Assembly: GCA_003223295.1 (NCBI GenBank)
Contig: QHYM01000149.1
Coordinates: 1 to 33,350 of the forward strand
Direction: 5' to 3'
Origin: Acidobacteriota bacterium
GTDB taxonomy: Bacteria; Acidobacteriota; Terriglobia; Acidiferrales; UBA7541
DNA: 33,350 nucleotides
The number at the start of each line of letters is the position of its first letter. The stretch's first letter is position 1. Below are positions 611 through 12,088 of this stretch, one piece after another. The notes under the pieces were generated by a model. It was not told where the DNA came from. It made no database searches and worked only from the letters and a program-made list of their open reading frames with translations. Position numbers and translations under genes: made by a program.

Positions 611-2221
611 ATGAAACCAGAGCGTCGTGGGTTAGTTCTGGCGGTTATCGTAGTGGCGGCATCGGCCGCGCTGGGTGGGATTTACGGCCCAAACGTGCGG
701 GCCACGACATCCTCGTACGACGATACCCAAAACTCGGTGCGAAATTTCACCGAAGTGCTGGACACCGTTCAGGCCAATTACGCGGAGAAGGTGGACGTCG
801 ACAAAATCGTATACGAAGGCGCCATCCCGGGCATGCTGCGCCAGCTCGATCCGCACTCCAATTTCTTCGATGCGCGCCAGTGGGCCCAGAATCGCGAGGA
901 AGTCCGCGGCAGATACTACGGTGTGGGCATGTCGGTCGTTCCCCGCGGGGATCACACGATTGTGATGACTCCCTACGTGGGCACTCCGGCATATAAGGCC
1001 GGAATCCGGCCCGGCGACGTGATCGTAAGAATCGACGACAAATCCGCGCAGGGCCTGACCACGCCGGAAATCGCCGATCTACTGCGAGGAGCCAGGGGCA
1101 CCCTGGTCAAGATCACAGTTTCCCGCGAGGGTTACACCGATCCGCTGATTTTTACAGTAATGCGCGATGAAATCCCGCACCACGCCGTGGAGCTGGCCTT
1201 CGAGGTCAAGCCGGGAATCGGCTACATAAAACTTTCCGGATTCAACGAAAAAACCGACGGCGAGCTGGGCGACGCGATGAAGCAACTGAACGCGTCTTCC
1301 CTCGACGGCTTGATTTTGGACATGCGAGGCAATCACGGGGGGCTGCTCAACGAGGCCATCGCCGTTGGCGACATGCTCCTGGATAAAAACCAATTGATCG
1401 TGTCGCATCGCGGACGCGCCTCCGCGGAGCGCCGTTTCTACGCAGTACGCGGAAACCAAGGCAACACCATGCCGCTGGTCGTCCTGGTGAACAACGATTC
1501 CGCATCCGCCACGGAGATCGTCGCCGGCGCGGTGCAGGACCACGATCGCGGCGTCATCGTTGGCGACACGACGTTTGGCAAAGGTTTAGTGCAAACAGTT
1601 GAGCCTCTGAGCGAAAACACCGGCCTGGCGCTCACGATCGCGCGCTATTACACGCCGAGCGGCCGGCTAATCCAGCGCGACTACAAGTCGATATCGCTCT
1701 ATTCGTATTACGAGCGCAAGGTTCCCGAGCATCCAACGGAAATCAAGTTGACCGACAGCGGCAGGCAGGTGACCGGCGGAGGCGGAATCAAGCCCGACAT
1801 TCTGGTTCGCGAACCGGAGTTCAATCACTTTCAAAAGGCGCTGCTGCGTGCTGACGTATTTTATCCGTTTGAGAGCAGCGTTGGCGGGTTTACGCTGCAC
1901 TACTTGGGGACTCGCCCCACGGTTACTAAGGATTTTGCAGTGGACGACACGGTGATGACGGACTTCCGCAAATTCCTCACCAGCAAGAATGTTCGCTACA
2001 CCGAGCCGGAATTCGCCGAAAACTTGGATTGGGTGAAACGCAAGATCAAGCAAGAAGTCTTTCTGTCCACCTTTGGCCAGCAGGAAAGCTTCAAGATTCA
2101 GCTTGAGGCCGATCCGCAACTGCTGGCGGGGATTGACGCCGTTCCGCAGGCGCGGGCGCTGTATGAAAAGGCTCGCAAGATCATCGCGCAGCGCGCCGCC
2201 GCCCCAACCTATCGGCCCTAA
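611..2221 (+). CDS. S41-family carboxy-terminal processing protease (CtpA/Prc-like), copy 1
   Basis: Serine protease of the periplasm that cleaves C-terminal tails of exported or misfolded proteins. The 536-residue protein has an N-terminal hydrophobic signal/anchor (about residues 7-23), a PDZ domain (about 100-185, with GIRPGDVI at 131-138), and the S41 catalytic core. The Ser-Lys dyad fits Ser299 (NNDSASATEI) and Lys324 (TFGKGLVQ), with the same 25-residue spacing as in E. coli Prc and cyanobacterial CtpA. The conserved RGNPGG loop reads RGNHGG here, with His242 where Pro is usual. The ATG at 611 follows a GAGGGTG ribosome site. A second copy lies at 28301-29914 in the same orientation and differs mainly in the C-terminal third. 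The substrate cannot be told. Confidence 0.93.
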   Translation: MKPERRGLVLAVIVVAASAALGGIYGPNVRATTSSYDDTQNSVRNFTEVLDTVQANYAEKVDVDKIVYEGAIPGMLRQLDPHSNFFDARQWAQNREEVRGRYYGVGMSVVPRGDHTIVMTPYVGTPAYKAGIRPGDVIVRIDDKSAQGLTTPEIADLLRGARGTLVKITVSREGYTDPLIFTVMRDEIPHHAVELAFEVKPGIGYIKLSGFNEKTDGELGDAMKQLNASSLDGLILDMRGNHGGLLNEAIAVGDMLLDKNQLIVSHRGRASAERRFYAVRGNQGNTMPLVVLVNNDSASATEIVAGAVQDHDRGVIVGDTTFGKGLVQTVEPLSENTGLALTIARYYTPSGRLIQRDYKSISLYSYYERKVPEHPTEIKLTDSGRQVTGGGGIKPDILVREPEFNHFQKALLRADVFYPFESSVGGFTLHYLGTRPTVTKDFAVDDTVMTDFRKFLTSKNVRYTEPEFAENLDWVKRKIKQEVFLSTFGQQESFKIQLEADPQLLAGIDAVPQARALYEKARKIIAQRAAAPTYRP

Positions 2222-2301
2222 GCTGCTATTCCTTCTGCGCCAGAGTTAAGCATCATTCGCAGGCTGAAACTTATTCGTTTTCGGGCATAAAAGAGTGATA
2301 T

Positions 2302-4072
<1,771 letters not shown>

Positions 4073-4116
4073 ATCCAACGCACTCAGTTTTCAAACGGAC
4101 CGCGAAAAACATGGGG

Positions 4117-4911
4117 TCAGGCGGGCCTTTCTCCGGCCATCATCTCGGCAAACCTTGTGTGGGGATTCCCGGCATAATCCGATGCAATTCCCGACCAGAT
4201 ACGGAGAGCTGCTTCCTCCTCTCCCCTTTCGCGGCATAGAAGACCCAGATGGAATTTTGCATTGATGGCTGTTGTGTCGTCCGGGCCTAATTCAATGCAT
4301 CTGTGAAGAGCTTTCTCGGCGGCGACCTGGTCGATTCTGATAAGCGCCTTCCCCAGGAAAAAATGGCCCAGCGCGCATTTCGGAGCAATAGAAATAATTT
4401 GCCTGCTCACCGCCTCAGCTTCATCGCCGTGACCTCCGCTGGTATCCGTCAAGCGTTGCAGAGTGCGCAGTTTTCCCAGTACGTCTTCGTCGATCGCGCC
4501 GGAAAGAAACTGCTTTGCGAGATGGGCTTCGGTCTGCACCAGAAAGAATCCGCGAGCCAGGCGATCGGTGGTTTCAAATTCTTCAAGAGCCTCTTTGTGG
4601 CGGCCGAGGAGCGAAAGCGTATATCCAAGCTCATAGTGTGGGTAAGGCTCATTGGGGGCGGCGCGAATTGCTTGGCGAAAATTATCCTCCGCTTTCTTGA
4701 AATTGCTCGTGCCCCCGCAACGCATTCCCTCTTGGAAGAGTTCCTTCCAGGATTTGGACTTGCGAAAGAAATCAAACACAGGAAACCCTTTCTTCCCTGC
4801 CAGAATTGGCTGCTTGGGATCAGGCCTGATTGCGCCGCCCCGAGACGGCCCATCGTCACAGCCCCGGTAGAAGTACTGTGCACGATACAACCAGTTCGGG
4901 CAATTGCTCAA
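4117..4911 (-). CDS. TPR-repeat protein of unknown role
   Basis: The 264-residue cytoplasmic-looking protein has no clear signal peptide. TPR-like helices are visible at about 66-100 ([20 protein letters not shown], then [22 protein letters not shown]) and again near 180-245 ([14 protein letters not shown]..., [22 protein letters not shown]). TPRs mediate protein-protein contacts, so no enzymatic role can be assigned. The N-terminus has two Cys (NCPNW, RGCDDG) without a complete metal site. The start is a TTG at 4911 and is uncertain; a later in-frame start is possible. It is divergent from kdsA with only 36 bases between them and converges with pyrG. Confidence 0.75.
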
Positions 4912-4947
4912 ACCGCATGGCGGTGTGTGGTATCTTCTTTAAATTCT

Positions 4948-5790
4948 ATGCCTGCTCCACACGAAATCGAGCTCGGCAAGCTGCGCCTGGGCGCGGGGAA
5001 CCCGCTGTTCCTGATTGCCGGGCCGTGCGTGATTGAAAGCGAATTACACGCACAGGCCATGGCGGAAAAGGTCGCGAAAATCGCGGCCGATGCCGGCGTT
5101 CCGTACATTTTCAAGGCGTCCTACGACAAGGCCAACCGCTCTTCCGTGAAGGCGTTTCGCGGGCCGGGGCTCAAGGAAGGGCTGCGCATTCTCGAAAAAA
5201 TCAAAAAGGATTTGAAGCTGCCGATCCTGACCGACATTCACGACGTGACGCAGGCGGAATCTGCCGCGGAAGTTTGCGACATATTACAAATCCCCGCATT
5301 CCTCGCCCGCCAAACCGATTTGCTGATTGCCGCCGGCAAGACTGGCCGCATCATCAACATCAAGAAAGGCCAGTTTCTTTCGCCCTGGGACATGGACAAC
5401 GTCGCCGAAAAAGTGGAAAGCACGGGCAACAAGAAAATCATTCTGACGGAACGCGGCACATCGTTTGGCTATCAAAATCTCGTCGTGGACATGCGCTCGT
5501 TTCCGGTGATGCAAAGAACCGGCTACCCCGTCGTCTTCGACGTCACGCACTCCGTGCAGCTCCCCGGAGGACGAGGTCAGGCGAGCGGAGGACAACCGCA
5601 ATTCATCGAGCCGCTGGCGCGCGCCGCCGTGGCTGCTGGCGTGGATGGGATTTTCTTGGAGACGCACGACAATCCCGCCGCCGCCCGTTCCGATGGTCCC
5701 AACGCCTTGCCGCTCTCGCAGCTTCAGGCTCTGCTCCTGAAATTAAAGGGACTCAATACCGTAGTTCGCCGTTGGAGCACTTCGTCATGA
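4948..5790 (+). CDS. kdsA: 3-deoxy-8-phosphooctulonate synthase (Kdo-8-P synthase)
   Basis: Condenses arabinose-5-phosphate and phosphoenolpyruvate to Kdo-8-phosphate, the first committed step towards the Kdo sugar of lipopolysaccharide. The 280-residue protein has [10 protein letters not shown] at about 23-32, [11 protein letters not shown] at about 56-66, [12 protein letters not shown] and FLETHDNP. Cys27 in GPC, together with the later His, Glu and Asp, matches the metal-dependent class (Aquifex type, Cys11) rather than the metal-independent E. coli type, which has Asn there. ATG 4948 is chosen because the open frame upstream (to 4303) lies over the divergent TPR gene and lacks family similarity. 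It overlaps the next gene by ATGA, so translation is probably coupled. Confidence 0.96.
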
Positions 5791-6746
5791 GCCTGGAGAC
5801 CGCCCGGCGCGTGCTCAAGATTGAAGCTCAGGCGATTCAGGACGTCCTCGCGCGCCTCGACGCCAGCTTTGAGAAGGCCGTGGAGGTCTTGTTCGGTTGC
5901 AAGGGCCGCGTGGTCGTCAGTGGAATGGGCAAGTCCGGCCTGATTGGACGAAAAATCTCCGCGACATTTTCGAGCACCGGCACGCCCTCATTCTTCCTGC
6001 ACCCCGCGGAAGCGTTGCACGGCGACCTGGGCATGCTGGCGCGCGGCGATGCCCTGCTCGCGGTTTCCTACGGCGGAGAGACGCAAGAAATCATTCAGCT
6101 CCTGGAAGCGCTGAAGCGCCTGGAGATGCCGCTGGTCACGTTGACCGGTTGCGTGCAATCCACGCTCGCGCAAGCCAGCGACGTGGTGCTGGAGGTCAGC
6201 GTGAAAGAAGAAGCGTGCTCGCTGAATCTCGCGCCAACCGCGAGCACCACCGTGGCCATGGCCGTCGGTGACGCGTTGGCCGTTTCGCTTCTGGAGCGGC
6301 GAAACTTCCGGCACAACGATTTTGCCGCGCTGCATCCTGCGGGACGGCTCGGAAAGAAATTGTTGCGCGCCGAACACCTCATGCATTCCGGCGATGCATT
6401 GCCTCGAGTCGCGCCGAATGCTGCGATGCCCGATGTTTTTCACGAAATGAGCGACAAGGGTCTGGGCATGACCACGGTGCTGGAAGCCGACGGGCGCCTC
6501 GCCGGAATTTTGACTGATGGCGACCTACGGCGCTTGATGGAGAAGCATCGCGGAGCCGTCCTGGAAATGCGTGCCGCAGACGGCATGACGAAAACTCCGC
6601 AAACGATAGGACCGCACGTGCTGGCAAGCGAAGCGCTGAACTTGATGGAGAAGAAAAAAATCACCTCGGTCGTCGTGGTCGATGAAGCGCGACGCGTTCT
6701 CGGGGTGGTCCACTTGCACGATTTGTGGACGCTCGAATTGATGTAG
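5787..6746 (+). CDS. kdsD: Arabinose-5-phosphate isomerase
   Basis: Interconverts ribulose-5-phosphate and arabinose-5-phosphate, supplying the substrate of KdsA. The 319-residue protein has an N-terminal SIS sugar-isomerase domain (about 30-180; [34 protein letters not shown]) and two C-terminal CBS domains (about 200-319), the KpsF/KdsD/GutQ layout. E. coli KdsD is 328 residues. The position directly after kdsA with a 4-base ATGA overlap supports a role in Kdo synthesis rather than capsule (KpsF) or sugar-alcohol use (GutQ). Confidence 0.95.
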
Positions 6747-6826
6747 CAAACAAAACAGATTTAACGCACAGACATAGTCACAGAGAACGTAGAGGCATTT
6801 AGAAGAAAAGGGGGAAAACAAGGGGC

Positions 6827-7372
6827 ATGAAGATATCGGCGAAATTAGCGAATAAAGCCAAGCAAATCTTGGTGCTGCTGATGGACGTGGACGGAACGCT
6901 CACGGACGGCAGCGTGACTCTGGCGTCCACACCAGACAACCACGCCCTCGAAATCAAGACGTTCGACGCCCATGACGGCCAGGGACTCTCGCTGGCGGTG
7001 ACCGCTGGCCTGCGCACCGGCGTCATCACCGGCCGGGGCAGCGCGGCGTTGCGTCGCCGTTGCAAAGAGTTGGACATCGAGTTTGTCTACGAGAAGCAAG
7101 GGCACAAAATTGCAGCTTATGAAGATGTTTTGCGAAAAACCGGAGCAAAGGAATCCCAGGTCGCCTATCTTGGCGATGATCTGCCCGACCTGCTCATCAT
7201 GCGCCGCGTCGGGCTCGCGGTAGCCGTGGGAAACGCGACTCCTGAAGTGAAACGCGCCGCAGACTACCGAACCAAAGCTTACGGCGGCAAGGGAGCCGCG
7301 CGCGAGGTCGTCGAGCTTATCCTCAGGTCCAAGGGCATCTGGGAAGAAATGATCGACAAGGCGCGCGCCTAG
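6827..7372 (+). CDS. kdsC: Kdo-8-phosphate phosphatase (HAD family)
   Basis: Removes phosphate from Kdo-8-phosphate to give Kdo, the third gene of this Kdo block. The 181-residue HAD phosphatase lacks a cap domain. It shows DVDGTLTDG with nucleophile Asp20 and acid/base Asp22, a GITGR-type second motif (GVITGRGS) and LGDDLPDL as the final motif. The 80-base gap after kdsD is longer than the kdsA-kdsD junction. It has its own purine-rich ribosome site (AAGGGG, about 4 bases before ATG). Family members also include phosphatases of sialic-acid pathways, but the neighbours fix the assignment. Confidence 0.93.
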   Translation: MKISAKLANKAKQILVLLMDVDGTLTDGSVTLASTPDNHALEIKTFDAHDGQGLSLAVTAGLRTGVITGRGSAALRRRCKELDIEFVYEKQGHKIAAYEDVLRKTGAKESQVAYLGDDLPDLLIMRRVGLAVAVGNATPEVKRAADYRTKAYGGKGAAREVVELILRSKGIWEEMIDKARA

Positions 7373-7675
7373 GCCTCCTAGCCTGCTTAATTCACGACAG
7401 TTGAAGTTTTGTCTTTCGGCGGTCGGAATTTTTGGTTTTTTGGCTTTTGAGTCATCGCGCGAGGCGTTGAAAGACCGCAATGAGGACGAAGTGCTGCATG
7501 GCGATGGAGGAAGACAGTCTTTGGAGCAGGCTCCGCCCTTGACGTGCGAGACAAGCGGATTGGCGACGCAAGAGGCGGCTAACTGGTATTGAGGACCAGC
7601 GCGAGTTTGCCGAACAGGGCTTGCCAGGGCCAGCCCGTGGCGAGATGAACCCGCCTCGACGCTCTCACCAGACAA
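7373..7675 (+). other. Intergenic region, probably decayed coding sequence
   Basis: About 300 bases lie between kdsC and the start of the CPBP-like frame. A 63-codon plus-strand frame (7401-7592) looks like noise. In the frame of the downstream CPBP gene there are stops at 7580 and 7646. The missing N-terminal membrane helices of that protein would be expected here, so this may be degraded 5' coding sequence. No promoter, terminator or RNA was recognised. Confidence 0.35.
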
Positions 7676-8185
7676 ATGCATCTTGGCGGGCCGCCGTGGA
7701 TTTCAATCGCCGTGGGCATTTTTCTGACAGGCACGTATGGATTACTCCGCAGCGTTTCCAGTGCGCTCGGCGAAGAGATTGGCTGGCGCGGCTTTCTGGT
7801 GCCGGAACTTTCCAAGACGACTTCCTTCACTCTGACATCGCTCATCAGTGGCATGGTGTGGTCGCTCTGGCACTATCCCATCTTGATTTATGGAGACTAC
7901 AACGCGGGAACTCCCACGTGGTACGGCCTGACGTGCTTCACCGTGATGGTCGTTTCGAGCAGTTTTGTGTTTGCCTGGATGCGCCTCAAGTCCGGCAGCC
8001 TCTGGACTAGCGCGATTCTCCACGGCAGCCACAATCTTTATATTCAGGCGATCCTTACGCCGCTGACGCGCAACACGGGGAAGACGGCCTGGTACATCGA
8101 CGAGTTCGGATGTGTTCTGCCCCTTGTCACCATTGTTTTCGCGGCGTATTTCTGGAGCAAGCGGCGGGAACTTCCGGCACAGTAG
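7676..8185 (+). CDS. CPBP-family intramembrane glutamic protease, apparently 5'-truncated
   Basis: Membrane protein of the CAAX-protease/bacteriocin-processing (CPBP, Abi) family. All three motifs are present in order: EExxxR (Glu33, Glu34, Arg38 in GEEIGWRGFL), a WxxxH form of motif 2 (Trp62, His66), and HxxxN (His116, Asn120 in HGSHN). These form the intramembrane active site. The frame is only 169 residues, whereas relatives are usually 220-300 with two or more helices before motif 1. In-frame stops at 7646 and 7580 block an upstream extension. It is either a remnant or an intact gene hidden by a frameshift. Natural substrates are unknown for most members. Confidence 0.6.
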   Translation: MHLGGPPWISIAVGIFLTGTYGLLRSVSSALGEEIGWRGFLVPELSKTTSFTLTSLISGMVWSLWHYPILIYGDYNAGTPTWYGLTCFTVMVVSSSFVFAWMRLKSGSLWTSAILHGSHNLYIQAILTPLTRNTGKTAWYIDEFGCVLPLVTIVFAAYFWSKRRELPAQ

Positions 8186-8220
8186 AACGATATTGGCCTT
8201 AATGAGAAAATACGAGCAGG

Positions 8221-8571
8221 GTGATCGTAATCAGCGAAGCTTGTCGAAATGACATGATTGCAGGCTTAATCTGCGCTGCCATCGGATTTCTGTTGATTAT
8301 CTGGCCTGAGAGAATACAGAAACGCCAAATTCAGTTCCAAGATCGCCACCCTAAACTTGCTGCGTTGAACCCTTTCGCGGAGTGGAACAGGTCGACGTCG
8401 GCGGTCATTCTAATTCGCTGCTCTGGCTTAATACCCATCTTGTTTGCACGAGTGGCGTTCTATTTCGCCATTAAGAACTGCTTCAAATCAATGTTCACCG
8501 CAAGTGCTGGCGATTACCAATTCGGAGGAAGGCATCCCATGTTGCACGCATGCAGCGGCGAATGTTATTGA
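8221..8571 (+). CDS. Small hypothetical membrane protein
   Basis: This frame of up to 116 codons starts with GTG 8221 or, more likely, ATG 8254 (MIAGLICAAIGFLL). It has a hydrophobic helix (about residues 13-27), a polar middle part with WPERIQ and LNPFAEWN, and a second hydrophobic stretch (ILIRCSGLIPILFARVAFYF). This two-helix plan is typical of small uncharacterised inner-membrane proteins. The last 25 residues are not hydrophobic and may follow a frameshift. It lies between the truncated CPBP gene and the selenoprotein gene. I do not recognise a family. Confidence 0.4.
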   Translation: MIVISEACRNDMIAGLICAAIGFLLIIWPERIQKRQIQFQDRHPKLAALNPFAEWNRSTSAVILIRCSGLIPILFARVAFYFAIKNCFKSMFTASAGDYQFGGRHPMLHACSGECY

Positions 8572-8713
8572 GAAGGCATTGGCGCGCTATGAGGAGCACC
8601 GCGAAGCGCTCCGGGCCAAGGACGGCCAGTAGTACAAAAATACTATTTTGATGAGTGTGACTGGGTGCTAGTTTGCTTGGACCTCAATGGTTCGGTTTGA
8701 GGGTACAGTGCTC

Positions 8714-9487
8714 ATGAAACCTTTGCTGAAATGGGTTGCCGGCGTTCTGGCCGTGCTGCTGCTTGCGGCGTCCGGCGTGCTTTGCTACATGGCGGGCAGC
8801 CCCAAGGACGCCTACGGCCTGGTGCGCTACGCCCTGCCGCACATGCATCGCGGCACTCTGAAAGTAGGCAGCGACGCACCCGACGTGCGGCTGCTCGCGC
8901 TCGACGGCACGAATCATTTTCATCTTCGCGAGCGCCTCAGCGCGCGCCCGCTGGTGCTGGTGTTCGGCAGCTTCACTTGACCACCCTTCCGCCGCCAGGT
9001 GGGCGACATCGTTCAGATCTACAACGACTACAAAGATCACGCGGATTTTCTCACCGTGTACGTCCGCGAGGCGCATCCTACCGACGAATGGCAGATGAAA
9101 TCCAACGTGAAGGATGACGTTTGCTACGCACAGCCGAAAACGCTGGAGCAGCGCGTGGCCATCGCCAAAGATTTCACCACACGCTTCAAGTTCCCCTTGC
9201 CCTTCGGCGTCGACGACATGAGCAATGCCGCCGACAACGTTTACGCGGCGTGGCCGGAGCGCTTGTATGTCATTGACCAGACGGGACACGTCGTCTATCG
9301 CGGAGGCATGGGGCCTTTCAACTACAAGCCTGTCGAAGTGCGTGAATGGCTTGCGGCAAAATACGGAGCCGTGAAACACGAAGCTCCGGCTGCAGCCGCT
9401 TCGACAGCGCCGTCTCCCACGCCAGCCTCTAGAACGGCTCCACCAACAGCCAGCGCGCCCGCGCCTGCCACTCCCGCCACGAAGTAG
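8714..9487 (+). CDS. Deiodinase-like selenoprotein (TGA-encoded Sec89)
   Basis: Thioredoxin-fold oxidoreductase of the iodothyronine deiodinase family. The frame is interrupted once, by TGA at 8978-8980, exactly at the deiodinase selenocysteine: LVFGSFT-[TGA]-PPFRRQ, compare FGSCTUPPF in vertebrate enzymes. The same frame continues to TAG at 9487, giving 257 residues. Other hallmarks follow: REAHPTDEW (Glu119, His121; vertebrate EAHxSDGW), PERLYVIDQTGHVVYRG and GPFNYKPVEVREWL. Residues 5-23 form a signal anchor, so the domain is probably periplasmic. An Ala/Pro/Thr-rich tail follows residue 222. ATG 8714 is preferred over the upstream in-frame codon at 8687 because it places the helix at the N-terminus and has GAGGG upstream. 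The bacterial substrate is unknown; iodinated hormones are not implied. Confidence 0.85.
8978..9005 (+). promoter_or_regulatory. Recoded UGA with bacterial SECIS-like hairpin
   Basis: TGA is at 8978-8980. Beginning 12 bases later, CGCC (8993-8996) pairs with GGCG (9002-9005) around the five-base loop AGGTG (8997-9001). In E. coli fdhF the SelB-binding loop AGGUCU starts 17 bases after UGA; here the loop starts after 16. An alternative stem, CCACC (8981-8985) with GGTGG (8998-9002), competes with it. The similarity of loop and spacing suggests SelB recruitment, but this has not been folded by program. Confidence 0.5.
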
Positions 9488-9524
9488 TGCACGACACTTC
9501 CCAGCGTCGAGCTAGAATCCGTGC

Positions 9525-10289
9525 GTGAAGCACCGCCCTCCAAAACGCAATCGGAAGAGAAGGGAACTGAAAAAAGTAGGATTGGCGCGGGCACTCTCCA
9601 AACTTGGCTATTGTTCGCGCTCGCAAGCTGCGGAACTGATTCGCGCGGGACGCGTGAAATTGAATGGTGCACTGCGGCGCGATCCGGAAACACCAGCGCA
9701 TCCCGGCAAAGACCGCATCGAAGTAGACGAAACTCCCCTTGGCGCCAGCGCGAAAATCTATCTCATGCTCAACAAGCCGCGCGGCGTTGTGACCACGGCT
9801 TCTGATGAGAAAGGCCGGGAAACGGTCTACGCGTGTCTGCCGAAAGGACCGCCGTGGCTCGCGCCTGTTGGCCGTCTCGACAAAGCCAGCGAAGGATTGT
9901 TGTTGTTTACCAACGACTCCGAATGGGCGGCCCGCATCACTGCGCCGGAGACGCATCTGGATAAAACGTATCACGTGCAGATCGGCGCGATCGCCGACGA
10001 AGCGCTGCTCAGCGCTCTGCGCGATGGCATCCGCATGAACGATGGCGATTTTCTTCGCGTGAAGTATTGCAGCATTCTTCGGCAAGGCGAACGTAACTCG
10101 TGGCTCGAAATCGTGCTCGATGAAGGAAAAAATCGCCATATCCGCCGCTTGCTCGAAAACCTGAATATCGAAGTGCTCCAATTGGTGCGCGTCGCCATAG
10201 GGCCGCTCGCCCTTGGCAGCCTGCAAAAGGGCGCGGCGCGCTTGCTTACAAGCGACGAGAAAGAGGCGATAGATCGCGCGATGCGATGA
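9525..10289 (+). CDS. rluB: RsuA/RluB-family rRNA pseudouridine synthase
   Basis: Isomerises a specific uridine of ribosomal RNA to pseudouridine. The 254-residue protein has a basic N-terminus, an S4 RNA-binding domain (about 17-75; ARALSKLGYCSRSQAAELI) and an RsuA-type catalytic domain. The catalytic Asp is 119 in VGRLDKASEGLLLFTND, and the EGKNRHIRRLLE motif near the C-terminus is present. Family details favour the 23S helix-89 enzyme RluB, but RsuA (16S) cannot be excluded from sequence alone. It starts with GTG at 9525, 37 bases after the selenoprotein gene on the same strand. Confidence 0.85.
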   Translation: MKHRPPKRNRKRRELKKVGLARALSKLGYCSRSQAAELIRAGRVKLNGALRRDPETPAHPGKDRIEVDETPLGASAKIYLMLNKPRGVVTTASDEKGRETVYACLPKGPPWLAPVGRLDKASEGLLLFTNDSEWAARITAPETHLDKTYHVQIGAIADEALLSALRDGIRMNDGDFLRVKYCSILRQGERNSWLEIVLDEGKNRHIRRLLENLNIEVLQLVRVAIGPLALGSLQKGAARLLTSDEKEAIDRAMR

Positions 10290-10310
10290 ACTGGCGTTTG
10301 TGAACCTCGA

Positions 10311-10337
10311 TTGACAGCCACGCGGCCCTTGTATAAC
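10311..10337 (+). promoter_or_regulatory. Putative promoter of the crotonase-like gene
   Basis: TTGACA (10311-10316) and TATAAC (10332-10337) are separated by 15 bases, slightly short. Transcription would begin about 10344, almost at the ATG at 10347, so the mRNA may be leaderless. The TTG of the -35 box can be misread as a start codon. Confidence 0.4.
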
Positions 10338-10346
10338 TTGCCTGGC

Positions 10347-11105
10347 ATGCCCTCTCCGAGTGCATCCGCGCCTTCCGGCCCGTCTCCAGGAACGGGCATG
10401 GTGATTCAGCGAATCCCCGACGTTCTCACATTCACGCTGGATAACTCCAGCCGCGGAAACCAGGTTACCGGAGCAATGTTTGACGCCATGCTGGCTGAAC
10501 TGCGCTCCGAATCCTCGACACCGGTCGCGCGTGTCTTGCGCATCCGCGCCCGCGGCAAAGTTTTCTGCACTGGACGCGAGCGTGCGGGGCGTGACGCTGA
10601 GTCCATTCACAAAGAAGCGGAGCGGCTCGTCGAATTCAAACATGCCCTGCGCACTTCTTCGCTGATCAGCGTTGCCGAAGTGCAAGGCGACGCGCTTGGT
10701 TTCGGTTTCGGCCTGGCGATTGCCTGCGACTTCGTGCTCGTTGCGGAAAACGCATCGCTCGCGTTTCCCCAGATGCGCTCCGGCCTCGCTCCTTCCGCGA
10801 TTATGGCCTACCTCGGCGAATACGCCCTCCCGCGGTTTGCATTTCCTCTGATCCTTTTCGGCGATCCGATCACCCCGATCCGCGCGCTCCAGATCGGGCT
10901 CATCTCGCAAATCTGCGCACCCGAGCAGTTGGTTGGCGAAACGAATGCCCTCGTCGCGCGTATCCTGCGTCTGGACCCGGCGGCAGTGCGGCGCTGCAAG
11001 GATTTTTTTCTTTCGGCGCAACAAAATTCCTTTGACCAGAATTGCCAGCGCGCCATCGAAGCGTTAACGGAAGACAGCCTGGCTTTGCTCAATAAGCAAA
11101 AGTGA
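10347..11105 (+). CDS. Crotonase-fold (enoyl-CoA hydratase/isomerase-like) protein
   Basis: Member of the enoyl-CoA hydratase/isomerase superfamily, which binds CoA esters. The core shows the usual order: RVLRIRARGKVFCTGRE (first oxyanion segment), VAEVQGDALGFGFGLAIACDFVLVAENASLAFPQ, and a helical C-terminus. The two glutamates used by classical hydratases are not seen: the GGGCELA position reads GFGFGLA and the QPE position reads FPQ. It may therefore do different chemistry or be non-hydratase. ATG 10347 (MPSPSASAP) is chosen; a Ser/Pro-rich N-terminus precedes the domain, and ATG 10398 is an alternative. The neighbours do not suggest a pathway. Confidence 0.75.
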   Translation: MPSPSASAPSGPSPGTGMVIQRIPDVLTFTLDNSSRGNQVTGAMFDAMLAELRSESSTPVARVLRIRARGKVFCTGRERAGRDAESIHKEAERLVEFKHALRTSSLISVAEVQGDALGFGFGLAIACDFVLVAENASLAFPQMRSGLAPSAIMAYLGEYALPRFAFPLILFGDPITPIRALQIGLISQICAPEQLVGETNALVARILRLDPAAVRRCKDFFLSAQQNSFDQNCQRAIEALTEDSLALLNKQK

Positions 11106-11215
11106 GCCGCTCTTGAACGTAAACGCCGGCGCTCGGCCCGGCCTTGAATCGATTCAAGCAGAAAAATTCGAAGCATTGGCACTAGAATAGGGCGCATCGT
11201 TTTTCTGGAGGGTTC

Positions 11216-12088
11216 ATGAAAAGAATCGGTGTCACGGCTTTGCTCCTCTTGCTCGGAATGATTCCCGCGCACGGCCAGTCCAAGCTCTCCGTGAAATGGG
11301 AAGAGCTGACCGCGGACGATTTCCGCCAAGCGATTCAGCAATCGAAGGCTACGTGCCTGCTCCCATTCGGCATTCTGGAAAAGCATGGGCCGCACTTGCC
11401 GCTGGGAACCGATCTTTTGAACGTGCGCTACGCCGCGTTACACGCAGCCGAGAAGGAATTTGCCGTGGTTTTTCCGGAATATTATTTCGGGCAGATTTTT
11501 GAAGCTAAGCACGAACCCGGCACCGTCGCCTACAGCATGGAGCTGCAGTTGAAACTGCTACAGGAAACCACGGACGAGATGGCGCGCAACGGCTGCAAGA
11601 AAGTCATCATCGTGAATGGTCACGGCGGAAACGAGCACCTGCTTCCCTACTTCGCCCAGGCGCAAATGGCCAGTCCCAAGGACTATGTGGTTTACGTGCT
11701 CGAGGGCGAACGCAGCCGGCCGGGTGGTCCAGCGAAAAAATCCTCCGGCATTGATTACCACGCCGGCGAAAATGAATCTTCCAACACGCTCTACACGCAT
11801 CCGGAACTGACGCATATCGACCGGGCCGGGCGCGAATCCGGCGCGGATCAGAAGCGTCAGAATCTTCCGGAGTTTCTCTACACCGGCATCTGGTGGTACG
11901 CCCGTTTTCCCAATCACTATTCGGGCGATGGCTCCGTGGCCACCAAGGAATTGGGCGAATGGAACGTGCAGGGGTGGATTTCCACGATTGTGGAAGCCAT
12001 CCGCGCCGTCAAAGCGGATGACGCCAGCCTAAAAATCCAGAATGAGTTCTATGAGAAGAGCAAGCATCCTCTCGATACGAGGCCGTGA
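11216..12088 (+). CDS. Exported creatininase-family amidohydrolase
   Basis: Metal-dependent amidohydrolase of the creatininase/formamide hydrolase family. The 290-residue protein begins with a signal peptide (MKRIGVTALLLLLGMIPAHG, cleavage probably after AHG). The metal site is visible: Glu55, His57 and Asp66 in EKHGPHLPLGTD, with the same 11-residue Glu-to-Asp spacing as Pseudomonas creatininase, then NGHGGN and DYHAGENESS. A GGAGGG ribosome site lies just before ATG 11216. The substrate is not predictable: family members act on creatinine, mycofactocin precursor or pterin-like amides. Export suggests a role outside the cytoplasm. Confidence 0.88.
   Translation: MKRIGVTALLLLLGMIPAHGQSKLSVKWEELTADDFRQAIQQSKATCLLPFGILEKHGPHLPLGTDLLNVRYAALHAAEKEFAVVFPEYYFGQIFEAKHEPGTVAYSMELQLKLLQETTDEMARNGCKKVIIVNGHGGNEHLLPYFAQAQMASPKDYVVYVLEGERSRPGGPAKKSSGIDYHAGENESSNTLYTHPELTHIDRAGRESGADQKRQNLPEFLYTGIWWYARFPNHYSGDGSVATKELGEWNVQGWISTIVEAIRAVKADDASLKIQNEFYEKSKHPLDTRP

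Follow-up and report, generated by a model that had tools for sequence, protein, structure and literature searches.

An in-frame TGA in an acidobacterial deiodinase-like gene: evidence for a probably membrane-anchored selenoprotein with a candidate resolving cysteine

A long reading frame that is cut by one TGA, and that resembles the deiodinases on both sides of the cut, raises two linked questions: is the TGA read as selenocysteine (Sec) and, if so, what would the resulting protein do? The frame lies in a 33,350-nucleotide stretch of an Acidobacteriota genome (contig QHYM01000149.1 of assembly GCA_003223295.1), the whole of which we call "the window." Our answer to the first question is that the gene almost certainly codes for a bacterial deiodinase-like selenoprotein, with Sec at residue 89. 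For the second we offer a probable, less secure answer: a redox enzyme with a Sec-Cys couple, anchored in the membrane and facing outward. The features on which the argument turns are collected in Table 1.

Table 1. Position of the gene, its proposed Sec codon and associated features in the window.
Feature	Position	Strand	Remarks
Deiodinase-like selenoprotein ORF, complete	8714..9487	+	257 residues; ATG at 8714; Sec at 89; stop TAG 9485-9487
N-terminal transmembrane segment, predicted N-in	8735..8791	+	residues 8-26; hydropathy 2.34; helix 3-27 in the model
Thioredoxin-fold deiodinase catalytic domain	8858..9355	+	residues 49-214; PF00837; predicted model; closest solved folds Dio2 9h48 and Dio3 4tr3
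In-frame TGA, proposed Sec89	8978..8980	+	aligned to Dio3 active-site residue Sec170
Candidate SECIS hairpin, family register	8991..9007	+	counted after the TGA, stem positions 11-16 pair with 22-27; AGGTG loop at 8997-9001
Conserved EAHPTDEW segment	9068..9091	+	Glu119, His121 and Trp126 correspond to Dio3 Glu200, His202 and Trp207
Cys137 codon (TGC), proposed resolving cysteine	9122..9124	+	corresponds in the alignment to Dio3 residue 215, close to where the omega loop ends
Ala/Pro/Thr-rich C-terminal tail	9380..9484	+	varies among relatives; low model confidence

Direct translation of 8714-9487 (+) meets a single in-frame TGA, at residue 89, and alignment sets it on the active-site residue of the solved deiodinases (sequence matches at 2.9e-26 for Dio3 and 1.3e-25 for Dio2), which confirms the earlier note's claim that one TGA divides one frame at the deiodinase Sec residue. 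In most same-genus homologues a start codon likewise lies 88 codons 5' of the TGA. With the TGA translated as Sec, the Pfam model T4_deiodinase (PF00837) matches residues 49-214 at E=1e-40 (140 bits, cut-off 27), and the NCBIfam model NF038285 (deiodinase_rel) describes the same core over residues 45-211 at E=8.9e-59; please note that the latter match, at 199.7 bits, is below the curated cut-off of 250 and starts at position 173 of a 347-position model. The motifs quoted earlier were found, and the protein belongs to the family both before and after the stop, by PF00837 and by sequence and fold matches to Dio2 and Dio3. As had also been foreseen, ordinary ORF calling splits the gene in two, 8687-8980 and 8999-9487; since a standard gene caller breaks it in this way, counts of the family in soil genomes may be too low.

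The gene is a further member of the bacterial deiodinase-like selenoproteins, a kind known since 2005, when Sec and Cys forms were reported, first from the Sargasso Sea, and when, thyroid hormone being unexpected in bacteria, a redox function was suggested (PMC1088965, accessible portion). It shares with them the PF00837 domain, the in-frame UGA, Cys homologues at the same column, the proposed redox role and, at the level of its homologues, its own copy being weak, a downstream hairpin with a G-loop. A 2008 ocean survey counted 22 deiodinase-like proteins and, in its accessible text, gives no motif (PMC2398784). For the Acidobacteriota, a 2006 count gives three selenoprotein families and four proteins (PMC1794560) and a 2025 count three genes in one genome (PMC12013277); the word deiodinase is absent from the accessible text of both. 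A literature search by title and start of abstract, with most subscription journals outside its scope, returned nothing on acidobacterial deiodinase selenoproteins or on a resolving cysteine in the family. The earlier note had called these proteins sparsely described in bacteria. The family is less unknown than that implies, given the forms in print since 2005; what stands is that functions are largely unknown, as a 2026 review puts it in its accessible part (PMC13188914).

How well is the TGA itself kept? A match occurs in 56 of 151 genomes, the window's own included; within the genus, 32 of 36 genomes have one. These 56 genomes hold 60 homologous loci, at which the active-site codon is TGA in 57 and TGT in 2, the last locus being partial and without the site. 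A scan of named genomes found at least 519 relatives, and the best 80 were kept: 78 have TGA and 2 (L111, L139) have Cys, with 77 of the TGA codons counted by motif search and one (L137) by eye. As these 80 loci were chosen for their likeness to the query, the ratio is no census, and many of them are the same genes as in the 60-locus set. The earlier note had proposed looking for Cys or Sec at this column, and Cys is what the four other loci having the site carry in the two sets. By record title, the named-genome homologues span Acidobacteriota, Planctomycetota, Myxococcota, Verrucomicrobiota and Armatimonadota. A third collection, 396 genomes drawn from the phylum, had PF00837 matches in 38, of which 30 were above the cut-off; its best 30 loci, the window's own gene being one, comprise 21 Sec forms, 8 Cys forms and 1 with another residue.

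Pooled, the three collections give 170 loci, some of them one gene present in two collections, with 155 Sec codons, 11 Cys codons and 4 loci outside the motif search (L137, TGA; L139, Cys; L197, GSSTT; and L078, partial and without the site). Removal of these four left 166 loci and 125 unique sequences; without the short L055, L056, L068 and L077, 121 bacterial rows remained, in addition to 2 mouse rows. In an ungapped comparison with 22 relatives, codon positions 1/2/3 show 0.155/0.114/0.414 differences per codon upstream of the TGA and 0.128/0.104/0.434 downstream, so that the frame looks, from these counts, equally constrained on both sides. Wholesale reassignment of TGA was rejected: it is the ordinary stop of five neighbouring ORFs with Pfam matches in the window (CTP synthase, DAHP-synthetase-type, pseudouridine synthase, enoyl-CoA hydratase and creatininase families).

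Some observations from these collections may be recorded here. One record titled Betaproteobacteria (L100) holds an acidobacterial-type copy that is 70% identical and is possibly mislabelled. Three genomes of family f71 (G359, G375, G454) have up to 6 PF00837 matches each, with and without TGA, which represent either a family expansion or fragments. Two Cys forms, L072 and L077, read TCPNF and TCPKF and follow a long extra N-terminal stretch that is TPR-like by eye.

Of the Sec machinery whose genes the earlier note named (selA, selB, selC and selD), the window genome has SelA (571 bits), SelB (350 bits), SelD (349 bits) and tRNA-Sec (64.9 bits). Of the conditions that the earlier note had set for its own refutation, none was encountered in the genome sequences. 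Its SelD gene (G000 contig C136:8380-9342) is itself interrupted by one TGA and is probably a selenoprotein gene too. Two identical tRNA-Sec copies lie on contig C465 of the same genome (L080), either side of a run of N. We dropped the idea of a duplication, because both copies repeat the same sequence flanking the N run; they are probably one gene counted twice, and tRNA-Sec was counted once.

In the subset of 97 genomes with completeness of 90% or more and contamination of 5% or less, 34 of the 86 that have SelB also have a Sec form, vs 0 of the 11 that lack it (Fisher p=0.007, with relatedness ignored); G006 and G072 were scored as SelB-positive in this test on partial matches of 228-232 bits. 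The 11 SelB-negative genomes are also without SelA and SelD above the cut-off. Taking all 151 genomes, a Sec form is present in 5 of 26 without SelB above the cut-off, namely G006 and G072, with their partial SelB matches, and G021, G058 and G088, which are 55-77% complete. In the phylum sample, one of 20 Sec genomes (G383) is without SelB above the cut-off. We had also considered Cys forms as a sign of lost Sec decoding, an idea that failed: all 6 Cys-only genomes tested in that sample have SelB.

A bacterial SECIS is a stem-loop that carries a G in its small apical loop just 3' of the UGA, and the candidate here lies inside the coding region, in the bacterial style, in contrast to the vertebrate deiodinases. 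At the level of the family, two registers were found. The first, that of Table 1, has a covariation score of 0.422 over 40 sequences, vs 0.132 when shuffled; the second, pairing 15-21 with 25-31, has 99% of cells paired in 16 others and scores 0.686 vs 0.220. Neither score was reached in 500 shuffles (0/500 each). It is important to remember that both registers were chosen on the very sequences that were then scored, and that relatedness can inflate such covariation controls. With the two registers at the true place, 51 of 57 sequences of the choosing set pass; none of the other codon shifts tried gave more than 23 of 56. With the registers held fixed, 20 of 41 held-out loci pass, vs 16 at a shift of -3, a poor result explained by additional registers in other clades, one of which has a GGTC loop.

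That held-out result prompted a free-register test with synonymous codon shuffling, which was made afterwards and which we regard as the fairer of the two. Of 96 unique downstream sequences, 60 have a stem of at least 7 pairs (expected 3.9; maximum 11 in 200 synonymous shuffles) and 73 a stem of at least 6 (expected 10.0; maximum 18 in 200 shuffles), with GGT as the commonest hairpin loop (43/96). For the family, the reading of the G-loop hairpin after the TGA as a SECIS is therefore strongly supported. The window's own copy is a weak one: 5 of its 6 pairs form in the family register, with one C.A mismatch; it has at most 5 contiguous pairs under the free-register rules; and at minimum energy it folds into a different, overlapping hairpin whose loop is GCCA. 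A scan of the window against Rfam at gathering thresholds returned only one ordinary tRNA. Two observations on the shape of the hairpin may be added. It is shifted by about one codon in L034-L036, L039-L040 and L046-L053, where the protein is still alignable; in L074 and L075, divergent Sec forms with TUGPF for TUPPF, it is quite different yet fully paired.

We turn now to what the full-length protein would be. The predicted model (mean pLDDT 87.8) consists of an N-terminal helix, residues 3-27, followed by a thioredoxin fold, and the closest solved folds are mouse Dio2 (9h48, 4.3e-15) and Dio3 (4tr3, 2.0e-14), the next standing at 4.0e-8. Vertebrate deiodinases have an N-terminal membrane anchor (accessible parts of PMC11592359 and PMC9141512), as is predicted here. 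Of 53 clade A and B homologues, 50 reach far enough to be judged, and in 49 of these the charge bias puts the N-terminus inside and the catalytic domain outside. One N-terminal anchor helix, with the catalytic domain outside the cytoplasmic membrane, is on these predictions the most likely arrangement.

For the active site we mapped residue roles from the accessible parts of PMC7506546, PMC9141512 and PMC11592359. Eleven Dio3 positions (S167, T169, P171, P172, Y197, E200, H202, W207, Q218, R225 and R260) are identical in all 53 members of the clade that carries Cys137, and the Ser/Thr/Sec/Tyr/Glu/His/Trp/Arg core network is complete in the window and in 53/53 clade members. The fold, the TUPPF active site and the Tyr/Glu/His/Trp/Arg network are thus common to the window protein and the vertebrate deiodinases. 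What differs are the places of His219, Arg275 and Tyr257, together with the proximal Cys168 and distal Cys239, where the window has other residues and, instead, Cys137. At the second His (Dio3 His219, which is Dio1 His174) the window has Pro141 and all 53 clade members have Pro; at Arg275 it has Met199, and the clade never has Arg or Lys; at Tyr257 it has Trp180, with Trp in 52 members and the place unread in 1; and Asp211 is never Asp in the 53. The residues proposed to hold thyroid hormone in the animal enzymes are not kept, and "deiodinase" here therefore names a family and no demonstrated activity.

The Sec forms share a family-level cysteine pattern. Among 111 unique Sec forms, Cys137 is present in 53, Cys154/155 in 50, Cys87 in 3 and Cys176 in 3. 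Exactly one of these four positions is filled in 109/111 Sec forms vs 2/10 Cys forms; none is filled in 2 Sec forms (one of them UPYC), and two are filled in none. The contrast weakens if any cysteine in the core is counted: 110/111 Sec forms then have one vs 5/10 Cys forms, and 12 of the former have two or more. L111, the sole Cys form inside the window's clade, has valine at 137. The states follow clades, with 7 changes on the tree; independent evidence for the one-cysteine pattern is therefore limited to far fewer events than 109/111 suggests. The Cys87 place is that of the proximal cysteine of Dio1 and Dio3, which in a Dio1 with Cys for Sec bonds the active-site residue (accessible part of PMC9141512). 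We read the pattern as one resolving cysteine per clade, which in the window's clade would be Cys137. The bacterial example in two reviews has UxxC (PMC13188914 and PMC9312934, accessible parts), vs UPPF and a cysteine 48 residues downstream here, a difference that may not be real.

The neighbourhood offers little guidance on substrate. Following a CTP synthase, the window has DAHP-synthetase, SIS+CBS and HAD ORFs at 4303-7372, which we infer to be kdsA, kdsD and kdsC of the KDO pathway; of 43 loci from close relatives, 21, 22 and 24, respectively, have comparable ORFs close to the gene. Neighbours are kept only among close relatives, and no conserved operon partner hinting at a substrate was found across phyla. 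Names were given to ten window ORFs (611-12088). As for mobile elements, a scan of viral contigs found no relatives, and a plasmid search gave one weak match only, at 25.5% identity.

These elements can be assembled into the redox-enzyme reading that we favour. The TGA would be decoded as Sec by SelB and tRNA-Sec, aided by the hairpin just 3', and a single N-terminal helix would anchor the product, whose thioredoxin-fold domain most likely lies beyond the cytoplasmic membrane. Sec89, backed by the conserved Thr88/Tyr116/Glu119/His121 network, would attack an oxidised or halogenated substrate; Cys137 would resolve the oxidised selenium to a selenenyl-sulfide, which an external thiol system would then reduce. 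Of this, the conservation of the TGA and of the core residues, the Sec machinery, the family and the predicted fold are shown; the topology, the resolving role of Cys137 and the chemistry are proposed. Our first guess at a substrate is of the peroxide type, with halogenated aromatics and thiol-disulfide exchange behind it.

A true reductive dehalogenase would apply the same Sec chemistry to halogenated aromatics in soil, removing their iodine (or bromine), with the animal deiodinases as a specialised offshoot. This we consider unlikely, even if several findings point its way: the anchor and proton network named for Dio1 and Dio3 (roles from the accessible parts of PMC7506546 and PMC9141512) is the one kept in 53/53 clade members, Dio2 and Dio3 are the closest solved folds, and a quick tree puts them beside the window's superclade (SH-aLRT 87). 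Against it, the equivalents of His219, Arg275, Asp211 and Tyr257 are replaced in the 53-member clade (Tyr257 in the 52 members read), and among the ten named ORFs around the gene only a HAD-fold protein bears a dehalogenase family name; it looks like KdsC, itself no dehalogenase. The position of the animal enzymes is also ambiguous, as alternative topologies were not rejected (p-AU 0.79, 0.74), and we therefore do not claim descent of the animal deiodinases from the window's superclade, which the quick tree had hinted at. A broader joint scenario is similarly doubtful. In it, the catalytic network would have stayed fixed as the resolving cysteine shifted between four or more sites (the second residue ahead of Sec; the loop covering the active site; helix 144-157; the end of the short helix 172-177); the outward-facing soil enzymes would perform a reductive dehalogenation-type or peroxidatic reaction; and the thyroid-hormone deiodinases of animals would have been derived from them by addition of a hormone clamp.

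An extracytoplasmic thiol-disulfide or sulfoxide reductase like ResA/TlpA, in which selenium replaces the attacking cysteine, seems to us no more probable than the dehalogenase. The predicted outward topology fits such an enzyme, the thioredoxin fold is common to both, ResA/DsbE-type structures come next after the deiodinases in the fold search, and the ResA model matches the window protein, if weakly (E=3.4e-4), with the ResA and TlpA models matching clade B relatives better. The active site argues otherwise: there is no CxxC or UxxC, the motif being UPPF here and in 104 of the 111 unique Sec forms and UPYC in one only, and the deiodinase-type EAHxxDxW segment is kept instead.

The two remaining alternatives concern the codon itself. 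A genuine stop, an error of assembly or a fresh pseudogene mutation would agree with the use of TGA as an ordinary stop in neighbouring genes and with the weak window hairpin, and is very improbable nonetheless; sequencing error and pseudogene were rejected on its presence in 57/60 loci and the like codon-position pattern on both sides, and the Sec machinery is present. Read-through as a non-Sec amino acid (near-cognate Trp, Arg or Cys), which the constrained downstream frame would fit as such, has an equally slight chance, as the site is a Sec codon in 155 and Cys in 11 of the 170 loci and both Sec machinery and a SECIS-type hairpin are present.

With the membrane-anchored redox selenoprotein as the preferred reading, there may be a route to the bench: TGA homologues occur in three Polyangium sp. 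genomes with strain-type names (L127-L129), so that cultures may lend themselves to selenium labelling and gene removal. In the accessible parts of the papers examined, the bacterial deiodinase-like selenoproteins have been assigned no tested function. What the window protein offers is a testable design: it has the core common to the animal deiodinases, lacks their hormone clamp and carries a candidate resolving cysteine, the place of which varies from clade to clade.
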